Positions 39,249 through 50,155 of a stretch of 64,000 nucleotides of DNA are shown one piece after another (positions within the stretch are counted from its first letter, which is position 1; every line of letters begins with the position of its first letter). Under the pieces are notes generated by a model. The model had not been told where the DNA came from, did no database searches, and worked only from the letters and a program-made list of their open reading frames with translations. The translations under genes were made by a program, and so were the position numbers. The stretch comes from Gemmatimonadota bacterium (GTDB lineage Bacteria > Gemmatimonadota > Gemmatimonadetes > Gemmatimonadales > GWC2-71-9), in the NCBI GenBank assembly GCA_003169895.1, contig PNAE01000007.1:1-64000 (forward strand). The letters run 5' to 3'.

Positions 39249-42188
39249 TCAAGAGCCACGGCGGGGCTCACGGCTCACGGCTGAACTCCTCACGAGTCTC
39301 GACAACTCCGCTCGCACGCCAGTGACCTCGGCGGCAGTGGCCGGCTCCGGGTCGTCGCGCAACGCCAGGTAGCGGCGGTATGCGACAATGGCCGCCGCGG
39401 TATCCCCGGTGTGCGCCGCAAGTCGACCCTCCTCACGCAGCATGGTCGAGAGTCCGACCAGCACGCGTGGTTCGCCGAAGTCGGTGACATACGGCCGCCG
39501 CCGGACGGCGGCGAGAGCCTTGTCGGGTGCGCCCGCCGCTTCCCACAACCGGGCTGCCGTGAGATTCGCCGCCACCAGGAGCCAGGTGAGCACTGGCGGC
39601 GCGGTCGCGGCGAGCGAATCGAGGCGCACCAATCGGGCGCGCGCATCCGGCGCGCCGGTCAGCTGCGCCAGCTCCGCGTCAATCGTTTCGGCGCAGAGAC
39701 CCATGTCATCGAAGCTCGGGTCGGTCAGGTATCCCATCCGCAGGCGACGCACGCCCTCGGCGACACCGGCGATCGTTCCATGATTGACTCGCCAGAGATT
39801 CACGCCACAGATGATATACGCCAGTTCATCGCTCGAGCCGGACGACAGGTGGCCGCGGCCGTCCGCGGCAGCGGCGGACTGCGATACCCACCGAGCCGGG
39901 AAAGTGGTATCTGCGCCCCAATAGAGCGCATTGACCACCTCGGCCAGGCCATCGCGCGGCCGGAACGGGACCGTAGCCTGCCAACGCGCGAGCAGCGCCC
40001 GCGCCTCCGCTGGTCGCCCGCGGTTCAGTGCAAGTTCGCGCTGCTTCATGAATGCCCATCGCGTCTCGGCACTCGCCCCGCTCTGTTGCCAGAGCGCGGC
40101 GGCGGCTCGCAACGCATCGGGCAGCGCAACGCCATCGAGTTGCGCAACGTTGACAATCCGCTCCAGCGCCGGCTTGTCGAATCGGTCGATCCGCGCCCGT
40201 ACCGCGCTGAGCGCTGGCTTGTCGCCGAACGCGACCGCCACGCGCCAGCGGTAGTAGTCCGCCAGGTTGCTGGTGGAGTCGAGCGCGAAGTATCGTCGCG
40301 CGAGGCTCCTGACCGCGGCCGTGTCGCCGCGTGCCGCAGCGAGATCGATCGAGGCCCCGAGTGCCGGCACGAACTCCGGTTCCAGCCTGAGCGCTCGCTC
40401 GAAACTGCCGGCGGCACGCTGCAGCACATCGGGAATGCCGAGCAGGGGGCCGTCATGGAACAGCCGTTCACCCAGCAAGTACCAGCGGGTGCCCTGTGTG
40501 GCGAAGGTTGCAGCGCTATCGGATCGTGCCAATCGCACGGCAAGCCCGACACCGTGCTCCAGTGGCCAGCGCAACGACCGCAAAAAGGCGCTGTCCATCC
40601 AGGTCATCACGCGGCGCTGCGCCTCCGCCAGCGTCAGTGCGCGTCGTGTTTGATCAGGATCGGCCAGCACCATGCTGACGGCGCCGAGGCCGAATGCCGC
40701 TGGAAAGCAGGTGGAGTCGCTCGCGAGCACCGCATCGTACAGGCGGCCGGCCGCCTGAAACTGGCCGTGGATGAACGCCCGCTCCGCGGCGAGGTACGAG
40801 CGCAGGACGGGGAGGGACAGCCGTGCCAGCGCTGCGCGCTCGGGGTCGGGAATGCGAGTGCTCTGCACGAGGAGCTGGATCACGAGACGGTCGACCAGCG
40901 CCGGAAGGCTGTCACGCCCACCGGTCACGTTGTCGACGCGTGCGAGAATCGAATCGCCGCGAACCGCCTTGAATGTCGCACTCAAGCTTACTCGTCCTTC
41001 CATCGCCGCCATGCTGCCCTGGATGACCCGACCTGCGCCGGCGTTACGCGCCGCGGCAAGCACCGAGCGATCGTCGAGCACCGGGCTCGCGGCCACCGCA
41101 ACCGCGCGAGGGCCGCCGTCGCCGGGGAGGCGCTGCACCACGAGATCCGCCACGCCGGCCGCCAACCGTTGCAGGGCCGAATCGGTGACGCCGCCGACAT
41201 GGAACGTCGGCACGGCCACGACGTTGGCATCGAGCGTTGCGGCGGGCGAGCGGCGAATGAGCGACCAGGGCCGGATCAGCAGCGCTGCCGCGAGCAGCAC
41301 GCACGTTGCCGTTGCCGCCAGCACCGGGGCCCGCCAGCGCGAAGTCCTGGCAATCGTTCCGGTGGCGACGTCGTGCGAGATGCTCTCCGGTGAAATCGCC
41401 GCGGCGAATGCAGCGGCGGTCACGAAGCGATCGGCGGGTGACTTGGCCAGCGCGCGATTCACCGCCGCTTCCACCGCACTCGGAATGGTGGGCCGAACCA
41501 CCCGCATGCGAGGCGCCGGCTCGGCCAGATGCCGCGCCACGATTGCCTGCGCCGACGGTCCGGTGAACGGTGGCTCGCCGATCAACATCGCGTAGAGGAC
41601 GCAACCGAGGCTGTACACATCGGAGCGCCCATCCAGCCGGGTGGTCCCGCTGATCTGCTCGGGACTCATGTACGCGGGCGTGCCCACGGAGAAACCCGTG
41701 GCGGTGAGCCTCTGCTCGCCGGTACGGTCGACAGCGTGCGCAATGCCAAAATCGGCAACCAGCGCGTTGCCGCCGGAAAGCAGGATGTTGTCCGGCTTGA
41801 TATCCCGGTGCACGACGCCGGCGGCGTGAGAATAATGGAGTGCGGCGGCAACCTGCCGGGCGATGGAGAGTGCCTCGTCGATCGGGAACTGTCCCTCTCG
41901 CGCGAGGCGGCTGCCCACCGACTCTCCGTCGATGAACGGCATTACATAGTAGAGCAGTCCCTCGATTTCACCCGAGTCATAGAGTGCGAGGATGTTCGGG
42001 TGACTGAGTCCGGAGGCCACGGCGATTTCGCGGAGGAACCGTTCCGATCCCACACCCGCCGCCAGCTCGGGCCGGAACACCTTGATCGCCACCTGGCGCG
42101 GGTGCCGAAGGTCGCGGGCGAGATAGACGGTTGCCATCCCGCCCTGCCCAACCTCACGCAGGACGTCATAGCGATCCTTGAGCAGCAC
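39249..42188 (-). CDS. Membrane Ser/Thr protein kinase with long TPR region
   Basis: A kinase of about 980 residues encoded directly downstream of the RiPP synthetase gene. The kinase domain has GQGGMATVYLARD, VAIKVF, HRDIKPDN, DFG and SPEQ. A membrane helix (PVLAATATCVLLAAALLI) is followed by a TolB-like segment (VAVPTFHVGG) and TPR-like helices to the end. The start is uncertain. No in-frame ATG, GTG or TTG lies between 42398 (deep inside the upstream gene) and the GTG at 42188; the latter leaves 14 residues before the glycine loop. It may be co-transcribed with the RiPP genes and serve in their regulation, but kinases of this kind are common all over this window. Confidence 0.85.
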   Translation of the reverse strand: MLLKDRYDVLREVGQGGMATVYLARDLRHPRQVAIKVFRPELAAGVGSERFLREIAVASGLSHPNILALYDSGEIEGLLYYVMPFIDGESVGSRLAREGQFPIDEALSIARQVAAALHYSHAAGVVHRDIKPDNILLSGGNALVADFGIAHAVDRTGEQRLTATGFSVGTPAYMSPEQISGTTRLDGRSDVYSLGCVLYAMLIGEPPFTGPSAQAIVARHLAEPAPRMRVVRPTIPSAVEAAVNRALAKSPADRFVTAAAFAAAISPESISHDVATGTIARTSRWRAPVLAATATCVLLAAALLIRPWSLIRRSPAATLDANVVAVPTFHVGGVTDSALQRLAAGVADLVVQRLPGDGGPRAVAVAASPVLDDRSVLAAARNAGAGRVIQGSMAAMEGRVSLSATFKAVRGDSILARVDNVTGGRDSLPALVDRLVIQLLVQSTRIPDPERAALARLSLPVLRSYLAAERAFIHGQFQAAGRLYDAVLASDSTCFPAAFGLGAVSMVLADPDQTRRALTLAEAQRRVMTWMDSAFLRSLRWPLEHGVGLAVRLARSDSAATFATQGTRWYLLGERLFHDGPLLGIPDVLQRAAGSFERALRLEPEFVPALGASIDLAAARGDTAAVRSLARRYFALDSTSNLADYYRWRVAVAFGDKPALSAVRARIDRFDKPALERIVNVAQLDGVALPDALRAAAALWQQSGASAETRWAFMKQRELALNRGRPAEARALLARWQATVPFRPRDGLAEVVNALYWGADTTFPARWVSQSAAAADGRGHLSSGSSDELAYIICGVNLWRVNHGTIAGVAEGVRRLRMGYLTDPSFDDMGLCAETIDAELAQLTGAPDARARLVRLDSLAATAPPVLTWLLVAANLTAARLWEAAGAPDKALAAVRRRPYVTDFGEPRVLVGLSTMLREEGRLAAHTGDTAAAIVAYRRYLALRDDPEPATAAEVTGVRAELSRLVRSSAVSREPRRGS

Positions 42189-42207
42189 CTTGAGGCGCGC
42201 CAGCAGA

Positions 42208-44622
42208 TCATCCGTGGGTGGCGTGGCGAGGAAATCCTTCCGGTTCGAACAGGGGGAACGCCGCAGCTTCGGGGTGTCGCAACTCAGCGAACAGCAACGC
42301 GAGTCCCGCCTCGCCCTTGAAGAGGCTGAGCGGTCGAGGCAGCGTCGACCGGCAACGCTCGAACACTTCGGCTGCCCGGTGCGCCAGCGTCGCTGCACGG
42401 TCCAGCCAATCGGCCTGGCCGGTGTGACGATAGAGATTCAGCAGCGCGTGCGCCCGCCCAACCAGTCCACAACAAAGATCGAAGATCACGCTGTCGGATT
42501 CCCAGGCGCTCCATGCGCTCCCTTCCGCCAGCACGCCGAAGCCGCGTCGAGGGAAATGTACGTTCGCCACGGTCCATAGGTGGACAAACCCGGCCGGCCC
42601 GTTGCACCAGCCCGCCACCTGGTGCCCCCCCAGCACGCTCGGCGTCAGACCAGCCCGCTGCTGCGGCCAGTGTATGCCGCGACCGAGAGACTCGGCGGCG
42701 TCTGCGAGTTCGACCAGTCGACGCTGCATCGCGGATGGCAGCGGCTGGCCGGTCGCGCGGTGCCATCGGAGCGTGGCGTACAGCAAGCCGGCCCAGCCAT
42801 GCGCGATTCCGAAGTCAGCCGGATCCCGCGTGCGGCCGATTGGACCGAATCGATCGATTTCCCGCCACAGCTCGGTCATGACTCGGCCGCCCGCACGTTG
42901 CAGCGAGGCGATCTGCTCCGACATAGTGGCCGGGAGCGCCTCGATCAGGGTGGCACATGCGAGCGGCACACCCATGCGTCCCAGCGTGAGGTCGAAGGAA
43001 GGCCATGGGATCCCCGCGGCGGTTGTGAACCGCTCGATCGCGGAAACCGCACCATCGGCATCGTTCATCGCCAACGCAATGAGCGCGCGAACGACGTGCA
43101 CACCCGTGATGCTGTGGAACGGGGAGACTGGGCCGAGGCCCTCGGCCTCCAGGCCGTCAGTGGGCGCGGCGAACGCCGCGTCAGTGTTGCTGTCGCGTTC
43201 AACGCGCGTGATCCACGCGTCGGCGAGCGCAAGCGTCCTGGCGTCGTCACGCAGGCAGGCAAGACGGTAGAGCGCGTACGCGACCCCGGCGCGGCCGAGC
43301 ATGATCGAACATGTTGGCGCGCGGCCGGCCGTCGTGAACGCCGGCGCCGCGTAGTCAACTCGAGCGAGGAATGCGCTGACGACGCCGTCGAGACTCGTAC
43401 GCGACGCCCGCAATCGTCGCGCGTCGGCGGCGCGGCGCGTACGTGGCACCCGCGCGAGGGCGCGCGCCAGATCGGTCATCGATCGAAACCGATCCTGCGG
43501 ACGCTTGGCAAGCGCGCGCGCGAAAACGGCTTCGAGTTCGGGCCAGGGTGCCGTGCCGCGGCGAGCGAACAGCAACGGCGGGTCGGACACGATCTGCTGC
43601 AACATCGTCTCGCGGTCGAGCGCCAGTTCGATCGGGTGCGCGCCGACGACCAGCGAGTAGAGCAGCGTGGCCACGGCGTACTGTTCGGCGGCCGCCGTGG
43701 GGGCCGGGAATTCGCCGCCAGCCAGCACCGAAGCGGCCTGTTCCGGCGCCAGGAACTGCGGCACGGCCCCCCGGCGGGCACGACCGCCGAGGCGGAGTGG
43801 CGCGATCGCACGCGCCAGGCCGAAGTCGAGCAGATGCACCGCGTCGCGACGATCGATCAACAGATTCCGATCGTGGACGTCACCGTGCAGCACGCCGGCC
43901 TGGTGGATGCCCGCGTACGCGTGGGCGATGCGGGTCGCCAGATCGAGCAGCTTCACCGTCGCGTCGGCAACAGCGCGGCTGCGCAACTCGGCGAAGGCGA
44001 CATCGGGCGCAATCCCGGTACACCACGACATCGCGAGCCAGGGACGCTGCGCATGCCGGCCGCTGCCGATCAAGGCCGGTGCGCCGTTCCCATCGAGATG
44101 ACGGAGCACCGCCGCTTCTCTTGTGAAGAGTGCACCCGACGTCACACCGGGGCGCGCCAGCTTCACCGCGACGACGGCACCGTCCCGATCGCGTGCTTGA
44201 TACAGTTCGGTGTCATCGACGACATGGAGACAGCGCAGCACCACAAAACGCCCCACCGTGTCGCCGCGATCGCGCGTCGGTAACGTCCGCGCCGCTTCCG
44301 GCGATCCGGCGACGACCAGGAATCGACTGTTGAAACAGTCGCGCAGAAGCGGGAATGCCTCTTCCAGGAGCGCGTCAGGGTTGAGGTCGAGCCGCTCCGC
44401 GCATGCGATGACGGCAGTTGCCACCGGCTTGGCCTCAAGAAACTCGGCCAGCAGACTGGCGCCGAGACGCCCAATGAGCCGGGCCGGCGCGCGGCCCCGC
44501 AAGCGCGTAACGGCGTAGTCGCCGCGCTTTGCCCCAAGACGCGCCCGTAAGGACGGCGACAGCTTGGCTGTCGGCGTGATGCTGACGTCGGCCGCGAGGA
44601 TCAAGGGGTCAAGAATCGGCAT
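42208..44622 (-). CDS. RRE-kinase-LanC fusion: lanthipeptide-type synthetase without lyase domain
   Basis: An 804-residue protein in three parts. Residues of about 40-125 look like a PqqD-type winged helix (ASLLAEFLEAKPVATAVIA, then DALLEEAFPLLRD), i.e. a RiPP recognition element. Residues of about 130-400 are a Hanks-type kinase with VAVKLA, HGDVHDRN (catalytic Asp248), DFG (Asp266), APEQ and a late KRPQDRFRSM. It has HGD instead of HRD and a degenerate glycine loop, as in LanKC-type kinases. Residues of about 430-804 are a LanC cyclase: His608 in GIAHGWAG, Cys673 in GWCNG, and Cys717-Cys718 in LCCGLVG. The zinc ligands are therefore Cys-Cys-Cys, as in ProcM-type cyclases, not Cys-Cys-His. 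No OspF-like lyase domain is present. The kinase should phosphorylate Ser/Thr of the precursor and the LanC domain add Cys. The ATG overlaps the HopA1-like gene by 14 bases. Confidence 0.85.
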   Translation of the reverse strand: MPILDPLILAADVSITPTAKLSPSLRARLGAKRGDYAVTRLRGRAPARLIGRLGASLLAEFLEAKPVATAVIACAERLDLNPDALLEEAFPLLRDCFNSRFLVVAGSPEAARTLPTRDRGDTVGRFVVLRCLHVVDDTELYQARDRDGAVVAVKLARPGVTSGALFTREAAVLRHLDGNGAPALIGSGRHAQRPWLAMSWCTGIAPDVAFAELRSRAVADATVKLLDLATRIAHAYAGIHQAGVLHGDVHDRNLLIDRRDAVHLLDFGLARAIAPLRLGGRARRGAVPQFLAPEQAASVLAGGEFPAPTAAAEQYAVATLLYSLVVGAHPIELALDRETMLQQIVSDPPLLFARRGTAPWPELEAVFARALAKRPQDRFRSMTDLARALARVPRTRRAADARRLRASRTSLDGVVSAFLARVDYAAPAFTTAGRAPTCSIMLGRAGVAYALYRLACLRDDARTLALADAWITRVERDSNTDAAFAAPTDGLEAEGLGPVSPFHSITGVHVVRALIALAMNDADGAVSAIERFTTAAGIPWPSFDLTLGRMGVPLACATLIEALPATMSEQIASLQRAGGRVMTELWREIDRFGPIGRTRDPADFGIAHGWAGLLYATLRWHRATGQPLPSAMQRRLVELADAAESLGRGIHWPQQRAGLTPSVLGGHQVAGWCNGPAGFVHLWTVANVHFPRRGFGVLAEGSAWSAWESDSVIFDLCCGLVGRAHALLNLYRHTGQADWLDRAATLAHRAAEVFERCRSTLPRPLSLFKGEAGLALLFAELRHPEAAAFPLFEPEGFPRHATHG

Positions 44623-45748
44623 GGGCAGCGACGTCGTTCGCCTGGCGCAGCAATCGGGTGGTGGGTGCCCAGGTTGATGTGTCGACGCCGTCGAGGGAGA
44701 GTCGATCGAGAGCGTATTGCACCGGGGTCGCGGCGTGACAGGCGAGCGCGCTCGCAAGGGCCTTGGCAAGTCGGGACGTCACCCAACCACGCCAGCTTCG
44801 ATCCTGCAGGCTCATTGGCAGGTTCGCATCCGGCGCCAGATCGGCACCCCAGGACAGCAGCGCGCCGGGCCCGGTCGGCGCGGTGAATGGCACGCCCTGC
44901 GCCGGCAGGCCATCGAGCCGGGTGCGCAGCCGAGCGGCCGCCTCGAACAGATCGTCTCGCGTTGTGAAGTAGCCGACGAGCCGGTCCGGGCGGAGCAAAC
45001 TCGGCAGGTCACGTCCAACCTTGAGGGTGAACGGCCCATGTCGCGCGTTCCGCAGGTCGAGCATGGCGCGGTAGGCGACCGGCGTGCCTTCCGGCGTCGG
45101 GCTCACATACAGCTTGTAGTGCGCGCCATTCGGCGCCGTGCGCATCGATCGCCCGGAGTCCGAGACAAGCCACCGTCCCACTACATACGATGCCGGGTCC
45201 GGCAGGGCATGCCGCACCCGGCGGCCGGACTCGCGATGCTCGCCGAGAAGGAAGCGGAGGATTGCGCCGTCGTCTGGGAACCGCGAGCGCCAGGCCGGTG
45301 ACAGCGGCCGGGCGTGATAGCGGTACAACCGGTCGGCGAGCCGTGCGGACGAGACGGGCCAGAGCGCGGCGGCGTGAGCCAGCGCATCGAGCGACAATTG
45401 TGCGAGCGGCGATGCAGCTCGCCGTGTCGCCGACCCGGGAAAGAACGCTCGATGAAGGCGTGGTCCCGAGCGGAAGCGCCCGTCGACCTCGATTTCGAGC
45501 AAGCCGTCGAGCACCAGGCGTGCGATGCTGCGGCGATTCGCCGTCGTCGCTGGAATGCGCGCCGGGGTGCGCAGTGCGCTGATGAGCTTGGCGGTCGCGG
45601 GTGCGACGTGAAAGGCCACGCCGAAGCCCGGCCGCGTGGGCCGGAGCAACGCGCCAGGGGTGCCGCTACCGGAACTCGCGGTTGGGTGATAGTGTCGAGC
45701 GGCGCGAACGCGGGCGTCAGCGAGGAGCCGACCGCTGAAGCGAGCCAT
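44609..45748 (-). CDS. HopA1-like protein, candidate phospho-Ser/Thr lyase of the RiPP pathway
   Basis: A 379-residue protein. The first 100 residues contain a possible winged helix (VAPATAKLISALR ... SIARLVLDGLLEIEVDGRF), perhaps a second leader-binding element. Residues of about 115-165 (LADRLYRYHARPLSPAWRSRFP) and 185-270 resemble the HopA1 effector family, with PFTLKVGRDLPSLLRPDRLV giving Lys243, Arg246, Arg253 and Asp255. HopA1-family proteins are the lyases of class V lanthipeptide pathways; in such a role it would remove phosphate to make dehydroalanine or dehydrobutyrine. The match is from memory of family patterns. It starts 12 bases after a strong hairpin and has no good ribosome site, and it overlaps the next gene by 14 bases. 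The alternative is an unrelated conserved RiPP accessory protein. Confidence 0.6.
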   Translation of the reverse strand: MARFSGRLLADARVRAARHYHPTASSGSGTPGALLRPTRPGFGVAFHVAPATAKLISALRTPARIPATTANRRSIARLVLDGLLEIEVDGRFRSGPRLHRAFFPGSATRRAASPLAQLSLDALAHAAALWPVSSARLADRLYRYHARPLSPAWRSRFPDDGAILRFLLGEHRESGRRVRHALPDPASYVVGRWLVSDSGRSMRTAPNGAHYKLYVSPTPEGTPVAYRAMLDLRNARHGPFTLKVGRDLPSLLRPDRLVGYFTTRDDLFEAAARLRTRLDGLPAQGVPFTAPTGPGALLSWGADLAPDANLPMSLQDRSWRGWVTSRLAKALASALACHAATPVQYALDRLSLDGVDTSTWAPTTRLLRQANDVAAHADS

Positions 45749-45760
45749 GCGTGGAGGCAG

Positions 45761-45791
45761 TCCGACCGCTCCCGGAACGGGAGCGGTCGGA
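45761..45791 (-). terminator. Perfect hairpin between precursor and modification genes
   Basis: TCCGACCGCTCCCG and its exact complement form a 14-bp stem with a 3-base loop, 16 bases after the precursor stop and 12 bases before the HopA1-like ATG. No T-run follows, so it is more likely an attenuator or mRNA-stabilising hairpin that keeps precursor mRNA in excess than a full terminator. Confidence 0.75.
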
Positions 45792-45807
45792 CCGCCCAGT
45801 CAGATCG

Positions 45808-46017
45808 TCAGCTGCAAGCAGTGCGCAGCTGGTCCCGAAGCGCCGACAGGTCGGAATCCACCGCCAGCTTGGGTTTGGCGGCGGTGTTGTTGGTGCAGCA
45901 GGTGCATGCCCCGGCACCGTCGCGGTCGCCGCACTGCTGCGTGTGCGTCGTACCGCCGGGACCGATCACGTCGGCGAAACTGACGAACGACAATTCGCGA
46001 CTGGCAAAGCGTGTCAT
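45808..46017 (-). CDS. Putative RiPP precursor peptide (Thr/Cys-rich)
   Basis: A 69-residue peptide preceded by a very strong Shine-Dalgarno (GAGGAGG, eight bases before ATG) and a near-consensus promoter. Residues 1-22 (MTRFASRELSFVSFADVIGPGG) look like a short leader ending in a double-glycine-type site. Residues 23-45 hold Thr23, Thr24, Thr26, Cys29, Cys38, Thr39, Cys40, Cys41, Thr42 and Thr45, enough for several lanthionine or methyllanthionine rings. Residues 50-69 are leader-like again (LAVDSDLSALRDQLRTACS), an acidic amphipathic helix, so a C-terminal follower is also possible. It is the first gene of the strand that encodes the HopA1-like protein and the RRE-kinase-LanC fusion. That it is the substrate is inferred from position and composition. 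Confidence 0.75.
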   Translation of the reverse strand: MTRFASRELSFVSFADVIGPGGTTHTQQCGDRDGAGACTCCTNNTAAKPKLAVDSDLSALRDQLRTACS

Positions 46018-46114: not shown

Positions 46115-46194
46115 GCACGCTCTTGCGCCCATCGACGGGACTCGATATTTCCCCATCGCTCCCTGCCCGTCCTCTTCCCGGATCAGCCGTGCCG

Positions 46195-47499
46195 ATGAAA
46201 GGCCCACCGCTCCGGGTTGCCAGCGTTCAGTTCGCGTTCGACGGCAACCCGGCGGCGATCCCACTCCGAGACCCTGTCACCCTCGACTTCCTCGGCGCCA
46301 CGCCGGAATGGACGCTCGCCGGGTCGCGCCAGCCCGCCGCGTTCGTCGCGGGCAGCCGGCCTCACGTGCGGGTCGTGTTCCGGCGAACTCCGGCGCTTCA
46401 GGCCGATGCTGGCCCGTGGCAGATCGGCGCACGCGGACACCTGGGTCCGGGCCTCGTGCCGCGCACCGTTCGCCTTCGGTTCAATGCCCAGGGCGATTCG
46501 CAACCCGTCGAGTTCCGCTTCACTGATGCGATTCCGCACGGCATCGTTGCTGCTCGCCGGCATTGGCGCTGGTACGCGGTGTGCAACGGGCAACGCCACG
46601 CCCTGGGCATTACCCGCCACCTGGTCTATCACGCGCGGCGCCGGCCCATCTCACCTGCCAGTTGGGCGGTGACGTCCGAGCGCCGGCAGGGCCCGTTCGG
46701 AAATCCGGATGCGCCGTGGGTCTATCTCCCACTGATGCAATGGACGTGTCGCTGGGCCGCCGGCCGGCGCGGCGACAAGGCGATCTGCGATGCGATCATC
46801 GCGAACGTCAAGTATTCAGGGTTGCGCTACGCCGAGGCGGCATGGAACGTCGGGCAGATGCTGCAGGTGGGTGGCGGCTACTGCGGCGGCTGGTTTCGCA
46901 TGTTCCAGGCCATGGCGGGGGCGCAAGGCGTGCGGGTTCAACGCCGCGCATTCCTGGTCGATTGGCGCATGGAGCACCGCGACATCATGCGCTGGTGCGC
47001 CATCGTGGTGTCCGCCCCCGGACTCCGCCGGAAACGCCCGGCCGAAGCCGCAAGCGTGTTCCACGATTCGAACGTCGGGCGCGCGAAGCGCGATCCGATC
47101 CAGCGGTTTCACGTGCGGCGCTATCGTTTCTGGGGACTGCCAGGCGCCAAGGCCGACGGGCATTGCATCAACTTCCTGCAGCACAACGGGCGCTGGTATC
47201 TCTACGACGCGTGTTTTTTCGCCAAGCCGGTGGCGCTCAGCAATTTCACGCTGCCACGCACCAGTGCAGAGCGCACCATCGCGGTCGAACGGCAGGGCAC
47301 CTTCCAACGGGCCTACCTCAATCGGGCGGTCAGCCACATGCTCGGTTCGCTACGCCACGGTAGGCGGCTGTTCAAGACCGACCACCCCGATCCCGCGGAG
47401 CCGCAGTTCACCAGCGACATTACCCGCAACGGCCTGACAGTGAAGACCGCGATCATCCCGCCACGGTGGCGGAATATCACCTTCTACTGGATGGCGTAG
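46195..47499 (+). CDS. Transglutaminase-like cysteine enzyme divergent from the RiPP operon
   Basis: A 434-residue protein. The second half has a transglutaminase/protease-like core: Cys230 in GGGYCGGWFRMFQAM, His323 in DGHCINFLQHNGRWYLYDA and Asp338 in the same stretch, in the order and spacing usual for the fold. Residues 1-170 are beta-rich and unrecognised. No signal peptide is seen, so it should be cytoplasmic. Members of this superfamily are mostly peptidases or amide-forming enzymes. It starts 177 bases from the precursor ATG, in the opposite direction, with the promoter region shared. A role in removing the leader or in cross-linking is inferred from position only. Start: the ATG at 46195 was preferred to 46123. 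Confidence 0.7.
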   Translation: MKGPPLRVASVQFAFDGNPAAIPLRDPVTLDFLGATPEWTLAGSRQPAAFVAGSRPHVRVVFRRTPALQADAGPWQIGARGHLGPGLVPRTVRLRFNAQGDSQPVEFRFTDAIPHGIVAARRHWRWYAVCNGQRHALGITRHLVYHARRRPISPASWAVTSERRQGPFGNPDAPWVYLPLMQWTCRWAAGRRGDKAICDAIIANVKYSGLRYAEAAWNVGQMLQVGGGYCGGWFRMFQAMAGAQGVRVQRRAFLVDWRMEHRDIMRWCAIVVSAPGLRRKRPAEAASVFHDSNVGRAKRDPIQRFHVRRYRFWGLPGAKADGHCINFLQHNGRWYLYDACFFAKPVALSNFTLPRTSAERTIAVERQGTFQRAYLNRAVSHMLGSLRHGRRLFKTDHPDPAEPQFTSDITRNGLTVKTAIIPPRWRNITFYWMA

Positions 47500-47891: not shown

Positions 47892-47909
47892 CCTTTCCGC
47901 AGTCCTAGT
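47876..47909. terminator. Bidirectional terminator covering two convergent stops
   Basis: ACTAGCTGCGGAA and TTCCGCAG-TC-CTAGT pair around a 6-base loop, with a 2-base bulge. Both stop codons (TGA at 47889 on plus, TAG at 47905-47907 on minus) lie inside it. Confidence 0.6.
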
Positions 47910-49155
47910 TGTCCCGCGCAAGCCGGATGCCCGAGAACTGCCAGCGTGCGTCCGGTGGGAAGAAGTTGCGATACGTCGAGCGGGCGTGTGACCGGGGCGT
48001 GGCGCACGATGCGCCGCGCAGCACGATCTGGTTGCACATGAACTTGGCGTTGTACTCGCCGAGGGCTCCCGGGGCGGGCCGGTAGCGGGGATATGCCGAG
48101 TACGCGCTCTGCGTCCACTGCCAGACATCGCCGTAGAGTTGCGCCGGTTCGTTGCCCGGGGCGCGCCCACCCGGCATCGGATGAAAGTGGCCACCCTCGA
48201 GAAAGTGGCCGTCGACCGGGGACGGCGTGGCGACCGCCTCCCACTCTGCTTCCGTTGGCAGGCGCGCCCCGGCCCATCGCGCGTACGCATCGGCTTCGTA
48301 CCAGCTCACGTGAGTCACCGGCTCGGCGTCCGTCACCGCGCGCATTCCGGACAGCGTCATCGTCCACCAATCGCCGTCGCGTGCCTCCCAATACAGCGGC
48401 GCGCTCCAGCCGTGTTCGCGAACAACATTCCAGCCATCCGACAGCCAGAGTTCCGGTCGGCGGTAGCCGCCGTCGGCCATGAACTCACGGTATTCGCCGC
48501 AGGTGACGAGGCGGTCGCCGACCTGGAACCGATCGATGAACACGCGGTGGCGGGGCGATTCGTTGTCGAACGCGAATCCCTCGCCGGCAAAGCCGATTTC
48601 GACCAGTCCCCCGGGTCCGTCGATCCAGCGCGCGGCTGGCACCGCGCCCTCCACCGGCACCGTCGCCGTCGCCGTCGCCTGGCGATACACCGGCCGCAGC
48701 GGATTGCACGACAGCAGATGCTTCAGGTCCGTGAGGATGAGCTCCTGGTGCTGCTGCTCATGATTCAATCCCAGCACCACGACGTCCGGCGCCCCGTCAC
48801 CCGCGTCGAGAAGTTCGAGCATCGCAGCATCGACGTGCGTGCGATAACGCCGCACGTCGGCGACGCTGGGCCGGGTCAGCAAACCCCGGTGCGGTCGGTA
48901 CGGTTGCGGCCCCACCGCGTTGTAATATGAGTTGAACAGATACTCGAAGTGGGCGTCGAACGGCCGGAAATCCCGGCGTGCCGGCTTCAGCACGAAGGTC
49001 TCGAAGAACCACGTGGTATGAGCCAGATGCCAGCGAGTTGGACTCGCATCGGGCATCGACTGCACCACGAAGTCCTCGATGCCGAGGGGCTCGCAGATCC
49101 AGTCAGTCGTGGCGCGAACGGCCCGGTACTGCTGGGCAAGGCTCGGGGTGGACAT
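47905..49155 (-). CDS. egtB: EgtB-like iron-dependent sulfoxide synthase (ergothioneine)
   Basis: A 416-residue enzyme with a DinB-type N-domain and a formylglycine-generating-enzyme (FGE-sulfatase) C-domain. The iron ligands are His46 in WHLAHTTW and His132 and His136 in HEQQHQE. The FGE part runs from about residue 190, with RLPTEAEWEAVA and a late RGASCATPRSHAR. It joins a sulfur donor (Cys or gamma-Glu-Cys) to hercynine with O2. AGGAGA stands six bases before the ATG at 49155; the frame continues upstream without conservation. It is downstream of egtD by 37 bases on the same strand. The donor cannot be told because egtA and egtC are absent here. Confidence 0.92.
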   Translation of the reverse strand: MSTPSLAQQYRAVRATTDWICEPLGIEDFVVQSMPDASPTRWHLAHTTWFFETFVLKPARRDFRPFDAHFEYLFNSYYNAVGPQPYRPHRGLLTRPSVADVRRYRTHVDAAMLELLDAGDGAPDVVVLGLNHEQQHQELILTDLKHLLSCNPLRPVYRQATATATVPVEGAVPAARWIDGPGGLVEIGFAGEGFAFDNESPRHRVFIDRFQVGDRLVTCGEYREFMADGGYRRPELWLSDGWNVVREHGWSAPLYWEARDGDWWTMTLSGMRAVTDAEPVTHVSWYEADAYARWAGARLPTEAEWEAVATPSPVDGHFLEGGHFHPMPGGRAPGNEPAQLYGDVWQWTQSAYSAYPRYRPAPGALGEYNAKFMCNQIVLRGASCATPRSHARSTYRNFFPPDARWQFSGIRLARDN

Positions 49156-49192
49156 ATGCAGTCTCCTGTCTGGTCGCGCCTTGGCCGCCCAG

Positions 49193-50155
49193 TCAGGCCC
49201 GTCGGGGAACCTGGAACAGCAGGACCGCGAACCAGCGCCGGTCATCGGTGAACACCTGGCGTAACTCGAACCCGAAGCTGGCCAGATACTGCTCCAGTTC
49301 ATCGAGCACGAACTTCCGGCTGATTTCGGTCATGATCCGTTCTCCCGCCCGGACCCGAACGTCACGCCCGAGTGGCCGGAGATGCACCGTCTGCTCGCAG
49401 GCAAACCGCGCGAAGATCTCGACGCGCTGCCATTCCGGGTTGTAACTGGCGACGTGGTCAATCTGGCCGAGGTTGAGACCGGCGCCAAGTTCGCGATTCA
49501 TCCGGTGGAAAATGTTGCGGGTGAACTCCGCGGAATGCCCGGCCACATCGTTGTATGCCGCGGTGATCAGGCCAGGATCCTTCACGAGATCCACGCCGAG
49601 CAGCACGAAGTCGCCCGGAACGAGATGGGCCGCGACGTCGGACCAGAAGCGCGCCGCTTCCGTCTGGTTGAAGTTCCCGACGGTGCTCCCCAGAAAGACC
49701 AGCATTGCGGGAGACAACTCGCCGAGCAACGGGAAGGCGGCATCGTAGGTGCCGTGAATGCCCGTGACTCGCACCGCGGGATACGCCACCGATATCGCCG
49801 CACTTCCAGTGCGCAGGGCCGCCTCGCTCACGTCGACCGGCACATAGTGTACCGAGCGCACATGGTTCGAGTAGGCTGCCAGAAGGTGGCCGGTCTTCCT
49901 GGAGCTGCCCGACCCCAGTTCGATCAGGGTGACCGGCCCGGTGAGATCGCGGATGTCGGCGGCCGACGCGTCGAGGATCGACGACTCTGTTCGGGTGAGG
50001 TAGTACTCCGGCGTTTCGCAGATCGCGTCGAACAACCTGCTGCCCCGCTCGTCGTACAGGAATCGACACGGGAGCCACCGCGGGTGATCGCTGAGCCCGA
50101 TCATCACGGCAGTCGCAAATTCCCGCGCCGCAACGTCTGCCTGGTTACTGCTCAC
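49193..50155 (-). CDS. egtD: EgtD histidine N-alpha-methyltransferase (ergothioneine)
   Basis: A 320-residue SAM-dependent methyltransferase that trimethylates histidine to hercynine. Motif I is LIELGSGSSRKTGHLL; the family signatures CETPEYYLTRTE, LGSTVGNF and RNIFHRMNREL are present, with a C-terminal SRKFVLDELEQYL. It overlaps the stop of the RDD/SpoIIM gene upstream by 11 bases. egtB follows. Confidence 0.95.
   Translation of the reverse strand: MSSNQADVAAREFATAVMIGLSDHPRWLPCRFLYDERGSRLFDAICETPEYYLTRTESSILDASAADIRDLTGPVTLIELGSGSSRKTGHLLAAYSNHVRSVHYVPVDVSEAALRTGSAAISVAYPAVRVTGIHGTYDAAFPLLGELSPAMLVFLGSTVGNFNQTEAARFWSDVAAHLVPGDFVLLGVDLVKDPGLITAAYNDVAGHSAEFTRNIFHRMNRELGAGLNLGQIDHVASYNPEWQRVEIFARFACEQTVHLRPLGRDVRVRAGERIMTEISRKFVLDELEQYLASFGFELRQVFTDDRRWFAVLLFQVPRRA

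Follow-up and report, generated by a model that had tools for sequence, protein, structure and literature searches.

Lanthipeptide classes are defined by the combination of lyase, kinase and cyclase that they exhibit. Class IV synthetases comprise lyase, kinase and cyclase in one chain, and class V systems comprise a separate HopA1-type lyase and a separate APH-type kinase. In the class V lyase CaoY, residues K219 and R187 are required for elimination (PMC9486802). Class VI has been described as a single chain comprising a kinase, a truncated lyase and a truncated cyclase (PMC10676316). Here, we describe a locus on contig PNAE01000007.1 whose combination is found in none of the described classes I-VI. 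It lies in a stretch of 64,000 nt, hereafter the window, to which the coordinates in Table 1 refer in forward-strand numbering. Along the minus strand, the locus comprises a gene for a short Thr/Cys-rich peptide, a gene for a phospho-Ser/Thr lyase, and a gene for a fusion protein with a domain resembling a RiPP (ribosomally synthesised and post-translationally modified peptide) recognition element (RRE), a kinase domain and a LanC cyclase domain. The last two genes overlap by 14 bases, with the ATG of the fusion gene at 44622 and the stop codon of the lyase gene ending at 44609, and the ATG of the peptide gene is preceded, 7 bases upstream, by the Shine-Dalgarno sequence GAGGAGG. All of the genes named in the original prediction of this locus, as well as their common strand and the 14-base coupling, are present. 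We estimate at about 85% the probability that the locus encodes a two-component lanthipeptide synthetase together with its precursor.

The predicted structure of the lyase is of high quality, with a predicted local distance difference test (pLDDT) score of 90.4 and a predicted template modelling (pTM) score of 0.90. Its best matches among solved structures are the class V lyase LxmY (Foldseek, 7e-7), HopA1, the class IV enzyme CuvL and SpvC/OspF, with Z scores from 16 to 9. Residues K212, K243, R253, D255, F288 and S318-W319-R320 are invariant in 55 lyase homologues, and Y260 is present in 54 of them. The spacing K243-10-R253-7-Y260 is identical to that of K219-10-R229-7-Y236 in CaoY. In a profile alignment, K212 corresponds to Arg187 of CaoY and to Lys104 of SpvC; judged by sequence, the group retains the lysine of SpvC and LanL at this position. 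In profile-profile comparisons, the lyase was closest to LanY-type lyases (2.8e-10, Streptomyces PF17914 set), followed by the lyase domains of LanL (2.3e-6) and LanKC (1.2e-4), and the LanY and LanL profiles compared directly gave an E-value of 0.065. This relationship of the lyase profile to LanY as well as to the LanL/LanKC lyases makes the origin of the fused synthetases testable. The separate protein had been called HopA1-like, which holds for its predicted structure and conserved catalytic residues but not for the Pfam HopA1 model (15.5 bits versus a cut-off of 22.7, E-value 0.016). When this model was searched in the genome itself and in nine genomes with homologous loci, the lyases of the group remained under the detection limit. 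A profile built on Gemmatimonadota lyases gave no hmmsearch match to class V or LanL/LanKC proteins, for which profile-profile comparison was needed, and a PDB sequence search with the lyase and RRE profiles gave nothing significant, so that structure search was needed.

The fusion protein was predicted with a similar pLDDT (90.5). Pfam identifies its kinase (4e-14, residues 141-345) and its LanC domain (7e-22, residues 439-791), so that the presence of both in one protein, as claimed originally, can be regarded as certain. The modelled kinase resembles PknB, ThurKC and CuvL, while the modelled LanC domain resembles human LanCL1/2 (Z about 40) and CuvL. All RRE-kinases retain K154, E169, D248 and N253, and every complete cyclase of the group exhibits the Cys-Cys-Cys zinc site. 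Sequence and structure prediction together establish the identity of the lyase, kinase and LanC domains and the integrity of the catalytic residues in both proteins. In the model, the N-terminus of the fusion exhibits a winged helix with a strand-strand-strand-helix-helix-helix topology that fits an RRE; the RRE-like domain of the original prediction agrees with this predicted topology, with the bounds moved from residues 40-125 to residues 1-105. The N-terminal domain of the fusion is homologous to that of the lyase (hhalign, 4.4e-8), which itself resembles residues 3-86 of the radical SAM RiPP enzyme TigE (Z 7.1, root mean square deviation 2.7 over 75 residues). As a related winged helix is found at both N-termini, both proteins carry a related, putatively peptide-binding domain. 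In two Cupriavidus loci (L021, 10375-11448, and L042, 5164-6324, both on the minus strand), the same RRE-like domain is fused, as judged by eye, to a 2-oxoglutarate-Fe(II) oxygenase-like part and lies beside the lyase, which suggests an extra modification.

The arrangement was then followed in other genomes. In the order to which the genome of the window belongs, the fusion is present in 8 of 288 genomes, with the lyase gene adjoining it or, in one genome (G071), on another contig. One genome per species was then scanned with an alignment of the fusion as query. The scan relied on short exact motifs, which makes the result a lower bound, and yielded 52 loci that encode RRE-like/kinase proteins, either with or without a LanC domain. 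These belong to Actinomycetota (15), Acidobacteriota (14), Pseudomonadota (10), Gemmatimonadota (6) and Chloroflexota (2), with single loci in Planctomycetota, Nitrospirota, Bacteroidota and Armatimonadota and one unassigned locus. A plasmid of Paenibacillus peoriae adds Bacillota as a tenth phylum. This plasmid and one of Cupriavidus oxalaticus carry both the lyase and the fusion; neither was found in the other plasmid records searched, and no homologue was found in the phage records searched. In all 50 loci with a sufficiently long contig, the lyase lies beside the fusion, nearly always directly upstream and on the same strand. As the lyase adjoins the fusion in each of these loci, the locus is far more than a chance assembly, and the comparison of sequences establishes the pairing as obligate. 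The arrangement is therefore a family that extends over at least ten bacterial phyla and comprises a precursor family of its own.

The open reading frames (ORFs) upstream of the lyase start with M-x-F-x-V-K-D-L-x-I-x-V, continue with a middle part rich in Cys, Ser and Thr, and end with a conserved C-terminal helix. This new type of precursor, comprising a leader (F-x-V-K-D-L-x-I), a core and a follower, is found at nearly all loci; no precursor was found in L026, L048 and L067. Upstream of the lyase, the leader pattern occurs in 35 of 53 loci, compared with one of 1405 control stretches; as the pattern was derived from the same data, this result shows its place and not an independent discovery. 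Pfam and NCBIfam searches assigned the precursors to no family. The cores are often repetitive, with ECRKGGTTC in L049, CTDCTTQQFSICGTSP in L029 and CHFGCS in L045 and L059, and the largest comprise up to 26 Cys residues. In the window, the core exhibits four Cys (29, 38, 40 and 41), six Thr (23, 24, 26, 39, 42 and 45) and no Ser. It contains a CTxCTN-type block in common with L023, L024 and L031, and its sequence TTHTQQCGDRDGAGACTCCTNNT is similar to KCTTCTSCTNVSNQ in L024 and to CTCCSHCTGCTNVTHQT in L031. The locus on the Paenibacillus peoriae plasmid (L022, 5801-6610, plus strand) exhibits three leader-core-follower units arranged head to tail in one protein (FRTVDLAANV, NDCGITCLASCG, AMKAELKTALDEVEAQ).

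With regard to the origin of the fusion, its best NCBIfam match is LanL (NF038150), which covers profile positions 184-804 and therefore begins past the lyase part. Such a match could be expected if the fusion were a class IV LanL that lost its lyase domain locally, in which case the separate protein would be a degenerate or unrelated neighbour. Nevertheless, the match reaches only 142 bits against a cut-off of 650, the catalytic residues of the separate protein are invariant, and it lies next to the fusion in all 50 of these loci across many phyla. The kinases of the group form one clade (Shimodaira-Hasegawa-like approximate likelihood ratio test, SH-aLRT, 99). In a first tree, which still included three very long branches, ordinary kinases were placed between the group and LanL/LanKC; after removal of these branches, the kinases of the group, LanL and LanKC were placed together, apart from ordinary bacterial kinases (95.6). 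According to the sequences, the kinase clade of the group is sister to the LanL/LanKC kinases. The LanC domains of the group also form one clade (100), whose position relative to LanM and LanL is unsettled in the cyclase tree (support 81). The separate kinase and LanC clades speak against the fusion as a LanL that lost its lyase, and local loss as an account of the whole locus is largely refuted and highly improbable.

In the phylogenetic check that had been proposed, the kinase and LanC domains each form their own clade separate from LanL, and the profile comparisons and kinase trees agree with the mixed class IV/class V arrangement that had been described, namely a kinase and a zinc-type LanC fused behind an RRE-like winged helix, with the lyase as a separate HopA1/SpvC-type protein. 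The observation is confirmed and its interpretation is supported, with two corrections: the group is widespread, and the fusion is not a lyase-less LanL. As for the suggestion of a possible undescribed group, no description of the arrangement was found in searches limited to open-access papers, and the group is not one odd locus. One survey labelled any protein with LanC and Pkinase domains as class III/IV (PMC7268733), and surveys of this type may have counted such fusions without noting the separate lyase.

The composition of the precursors can be compared with the presence of LanC. Six Cellulomonas loci (L068 and L070-L074) comprise the lyase and the RRE-kinase without LanC, and no LanC was found anywhere in the two Cellulomonas genomes searched. 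Their precursors keep the leader (MGFYVKDLYV) and the follower, exhibit no Cys at all, and have cores of the TIPTPITPIV or VPSWLTPI type. In Phenylobacterium, one locus lacks LanC within the cluster; its precursor exhibits one Cys, and a LanC is encoded elsewhere in the genome. The absence of Cys where LanC is gone is as expected if LanC forms thioethers. This suggests that the loss of LanC is coupled with the loss of Cys, the Cellulomonas cases being one event on the tree and not a statistical result. Linear dehydrated peptides are possible as the class of product of the LanC-less Cellulomonas loci. In two Acidobacteriota loci (L034 and L063), the precursors exhibit TIPTPITPVVH motifs and two Cys only, with an intact LanC zinc site, and appear to stand between the cyclised type and the Cys-free type.

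These Cys-free or Cys-poor precursors with TIPTPITP-type motifs, found where LanC is missing beside the kinase in Cellulomonas and Phenylobacterium, could also indicate that the whole system is a dehydrating RiPP system that mainly produces linear dehydrated peptides, with LanC as an accessory or as the catalyst of another addition reaction. The LanC of the window has an intact zinc site, and four Cys are found among the six Thr of the core, which makes this explanation improbable here. A signalling or regulatory system can also be considered, in which a small protein would be phosphorylated and its phosphate irreversibly removed, as OspF and SpvC do on mitogen-activated protein kinases, with no natural product being formed. 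The fold of the lyase is common to effector lyases, the kinase resembles PknB, and the next gene downstream encodes an ordinary Ser/Thr kinase, all of which would fit such a role. Signalling does not account for the fusion of LanC to the kinase, for repetitive Cys/Ser/Thr cores that contain as many as 26 Cys and are flanked by conserved segments, or for the loss of Cys where LanC is lost, and it is the least probable of the explanations considered.

For the two-component synthetase, we infer the following course of modification. The N-terminal winged helix of the fusion would bind the N-terminal leader of the 69-residue peptide, and the kinase would phosphorylate the core on Thr, the six candidate residues all being Thr. 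The lyase would then eliminate the phosphate by means of the Lys, Lys, Arg and Tyr at the positions known from SpvC, LanL and LanY, which would yield dehydrobutyrine. LanC, with its zinc held by three Cys, would finally add the Cys thiols of the core, giving methyllanthionine rings. By analogy with CaoK-CaoY, the lyase and the fusion probably act as a complex. Given that the winged-helix domains of the two proteins are related and that both ends of the precursor are conserved, the core might be held from both sides, which is a guess.

Several observations weigh against the two-component synthetase. The Pfam and NCBIfam PqqD or RRE models did not match the N-terminus of the fusion, whose designation as RRE-like is based on its predicted topology. 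The precursor gene in the window is a short ORF that lacks annotation, and its leader departs from the leader pattern at a single position. In the profile alignment, the lyase exhibits, as LanY does, a Tyr at the position of His106 in SpvC, which bears on the general acid. Finally, no transporter or protease recurs across phyla; the neighbouring ORFs that cluster are the lyase, the fusion, the precursor and reverse-frame artefacts.

Table 1 Features of the locus and neighbouring genes in the window
Feature	Position	Strand	Basis
Precursor gene, 69 aa; MTRFASRELSFVSF leader, Thr/Cys core, C-terminal helix	45808..46017	(-)	ORF; motifs common to related-locus precursors
Leader motif FASRELSFVSF, residues 4-14, equivalent to F-x-V-K-D-L-x-I-x-V	45976..46008	(-)	precursor alignment
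Presumed core, residues 22-48	45874..45954	(-)	sequence
Conserved C-terminal segment DLSALRDQL, residues 56-64, short form of the helical follower	45826..45852	(-)	alignment
Phospho-Ser/Thr lyase, 379 aa, HopA1/LanY/SpvC fold; K212, K243, R253 and Y260 at catalytic positions	44609..45748	(-)	model, PDB matches, conservation, profile alignment
Winged-helix domain of the lyase, N-terminal, residues 8-105	45434..45727	(-)	hhalign, TigE fold match
Catalytic lyase domain, residues 150-365	44654..45301	(-)	predicted structure, PDB fold matches
Fusion protein, 804 aa, RRE-like + kinase + LanC	42208..44622	(-)	Pfam, NCBIfam, predicted structure
RRE-like winged-helix domain, residues 1-105	44308..44622	(-)	predicted topology; conserved in 54 homologues
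Ser/Thr kinase domain, residues 119-400; K154, E169, H246-x-D248, N253, D266-F-G	43423..44268	(-)	Pfam, conservation
LanC cyclase domain, residues 432-796; zinc ligands C673, C717, C718; H608	42235..43329	(-)	Pfam, invariant ligands, fold match
Hairpin, 19-bp inverted repeat, 3-base loop, without U-run	45756..45796	(-)	between precursor and lyase
Divergent gene, Cys-His-Asp pattern	46183..47499	(+)	weak transglutaminase-core match
Ser/Thr kinase gene	39252..42209	(-)	Pfam
Two overlapping ORFs, egtB/egtD (ergothioneine)-like	47905..50155	(-)	by eye

The inverted repeat between the precursor and lyase genes is probably an attenuating or protecting hairpin, and no counterpart was found in the corresponding short stretches of L023 and L024. 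The product of the divergent gene exhibits the Cys-His-Asp pattern GGYCGGW, DGHC and WYLYD and matches a transglutaminase core weakly (E-value 0.035, under the cut-off). Its homologues, about 43-50% identical, occupy the corresponding position in L007, L023 and L024 only, and it is a candidate for a maturation protease or a cross-linking enzyme. The Ser/Thr kinase encoded directly downstream of the fusion (Pfam, 2e-49) also exhibits weak TPR matches. A homologue occupies the corresponding position in L023, L024 and L025, and several close paralogues lie between 3.4 and 17 kb in the window.

Tentatively, and with rather less than even confidence, we propose that the group is an unnamed, separate lanthipeptide class of at least ten phyla, in which two related winged helices would hold the core between the leader and the C-terminal helix. 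It would be a sister of classes III and IV that kept the state of the lyase before fusion, with a LanC-less branch making Cys-free dehydrated peptides. The zinc ligands of ProcM-like enzymes are three Cys, and the group provides an enzyme with such a three-Cys site, a feature associated with the substrate-tolerant ProcM. The loci point to dozens of peptide clusters that await exploration in Acidobacteriota, Gemmatimonadota, Chloroflexota and further phyla; tandem ring modules occur among them, and their cores reach 26 Cys. The branch without LanC offers a natural experiment on the role of this enzyme.

Compared with known systems, the group is similar to class V (LxmK-LxmY, CaoK-CaoY) and to the thioamitide pair TvaC-TvaD, which also comprise a HopA1-fold lyase separate from the kinase, with the same Lys/Arg/Tyr spacing (PMC9486802). 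Its lyase is HopA1-type by fold, residues and profile, without reaching the Pfam cut-off, and exhibits a Lys (K212) where LanY has Arg187. In contrast to the separate, APH-type LanK of class V (PF01636), its kinase is of the LanL/LanKC lineage, with PF00069 as best match, and is fused to LanC and to an RRE-like domain; the precursor families are unrelated. Class IV LanL enzymes such as CuvL exhibit a related kinase followed by a zinc LanC in one chain, as in the group. However, the lyase of the group is a separate protein rather than part of that chain, the N-terminus of the fusion is RRE-like, the score stays below the NF038150 cut-off, and the zinc ligands are Cys-Cys-Cys in all members, whereas they are Cys-Cys-His in 10 of the 12 LanL examined. 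Class III LanKC enzymes (ThurKC, SalKC) share the kinase-cyclase order and a related lyase fold, but they comprise the lyase in the same chain and exhibit no zinc site, whereas the group exhibits a separate lyase and zinc ligands. ProcM-like LanM enzymes of class II, which exhibit a unique set of zinc ligands (PMC11667668), share with the group a CCG three-Cys zinc site and multi-ring, Cys-rich substrates, but dehydrate with a lipid-kinase-like domain and without a separate lyase. Class VI of Streptococcus also has a kinase, with its other domains incomplete; relative to its published description (PMC10676316), the group differs in having a complete separate lyase and a complete cyclase (residues 432-796). 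Overall, the mechanism would resemble a hybrid of classes IV and V, and a class of its own is a possibility.

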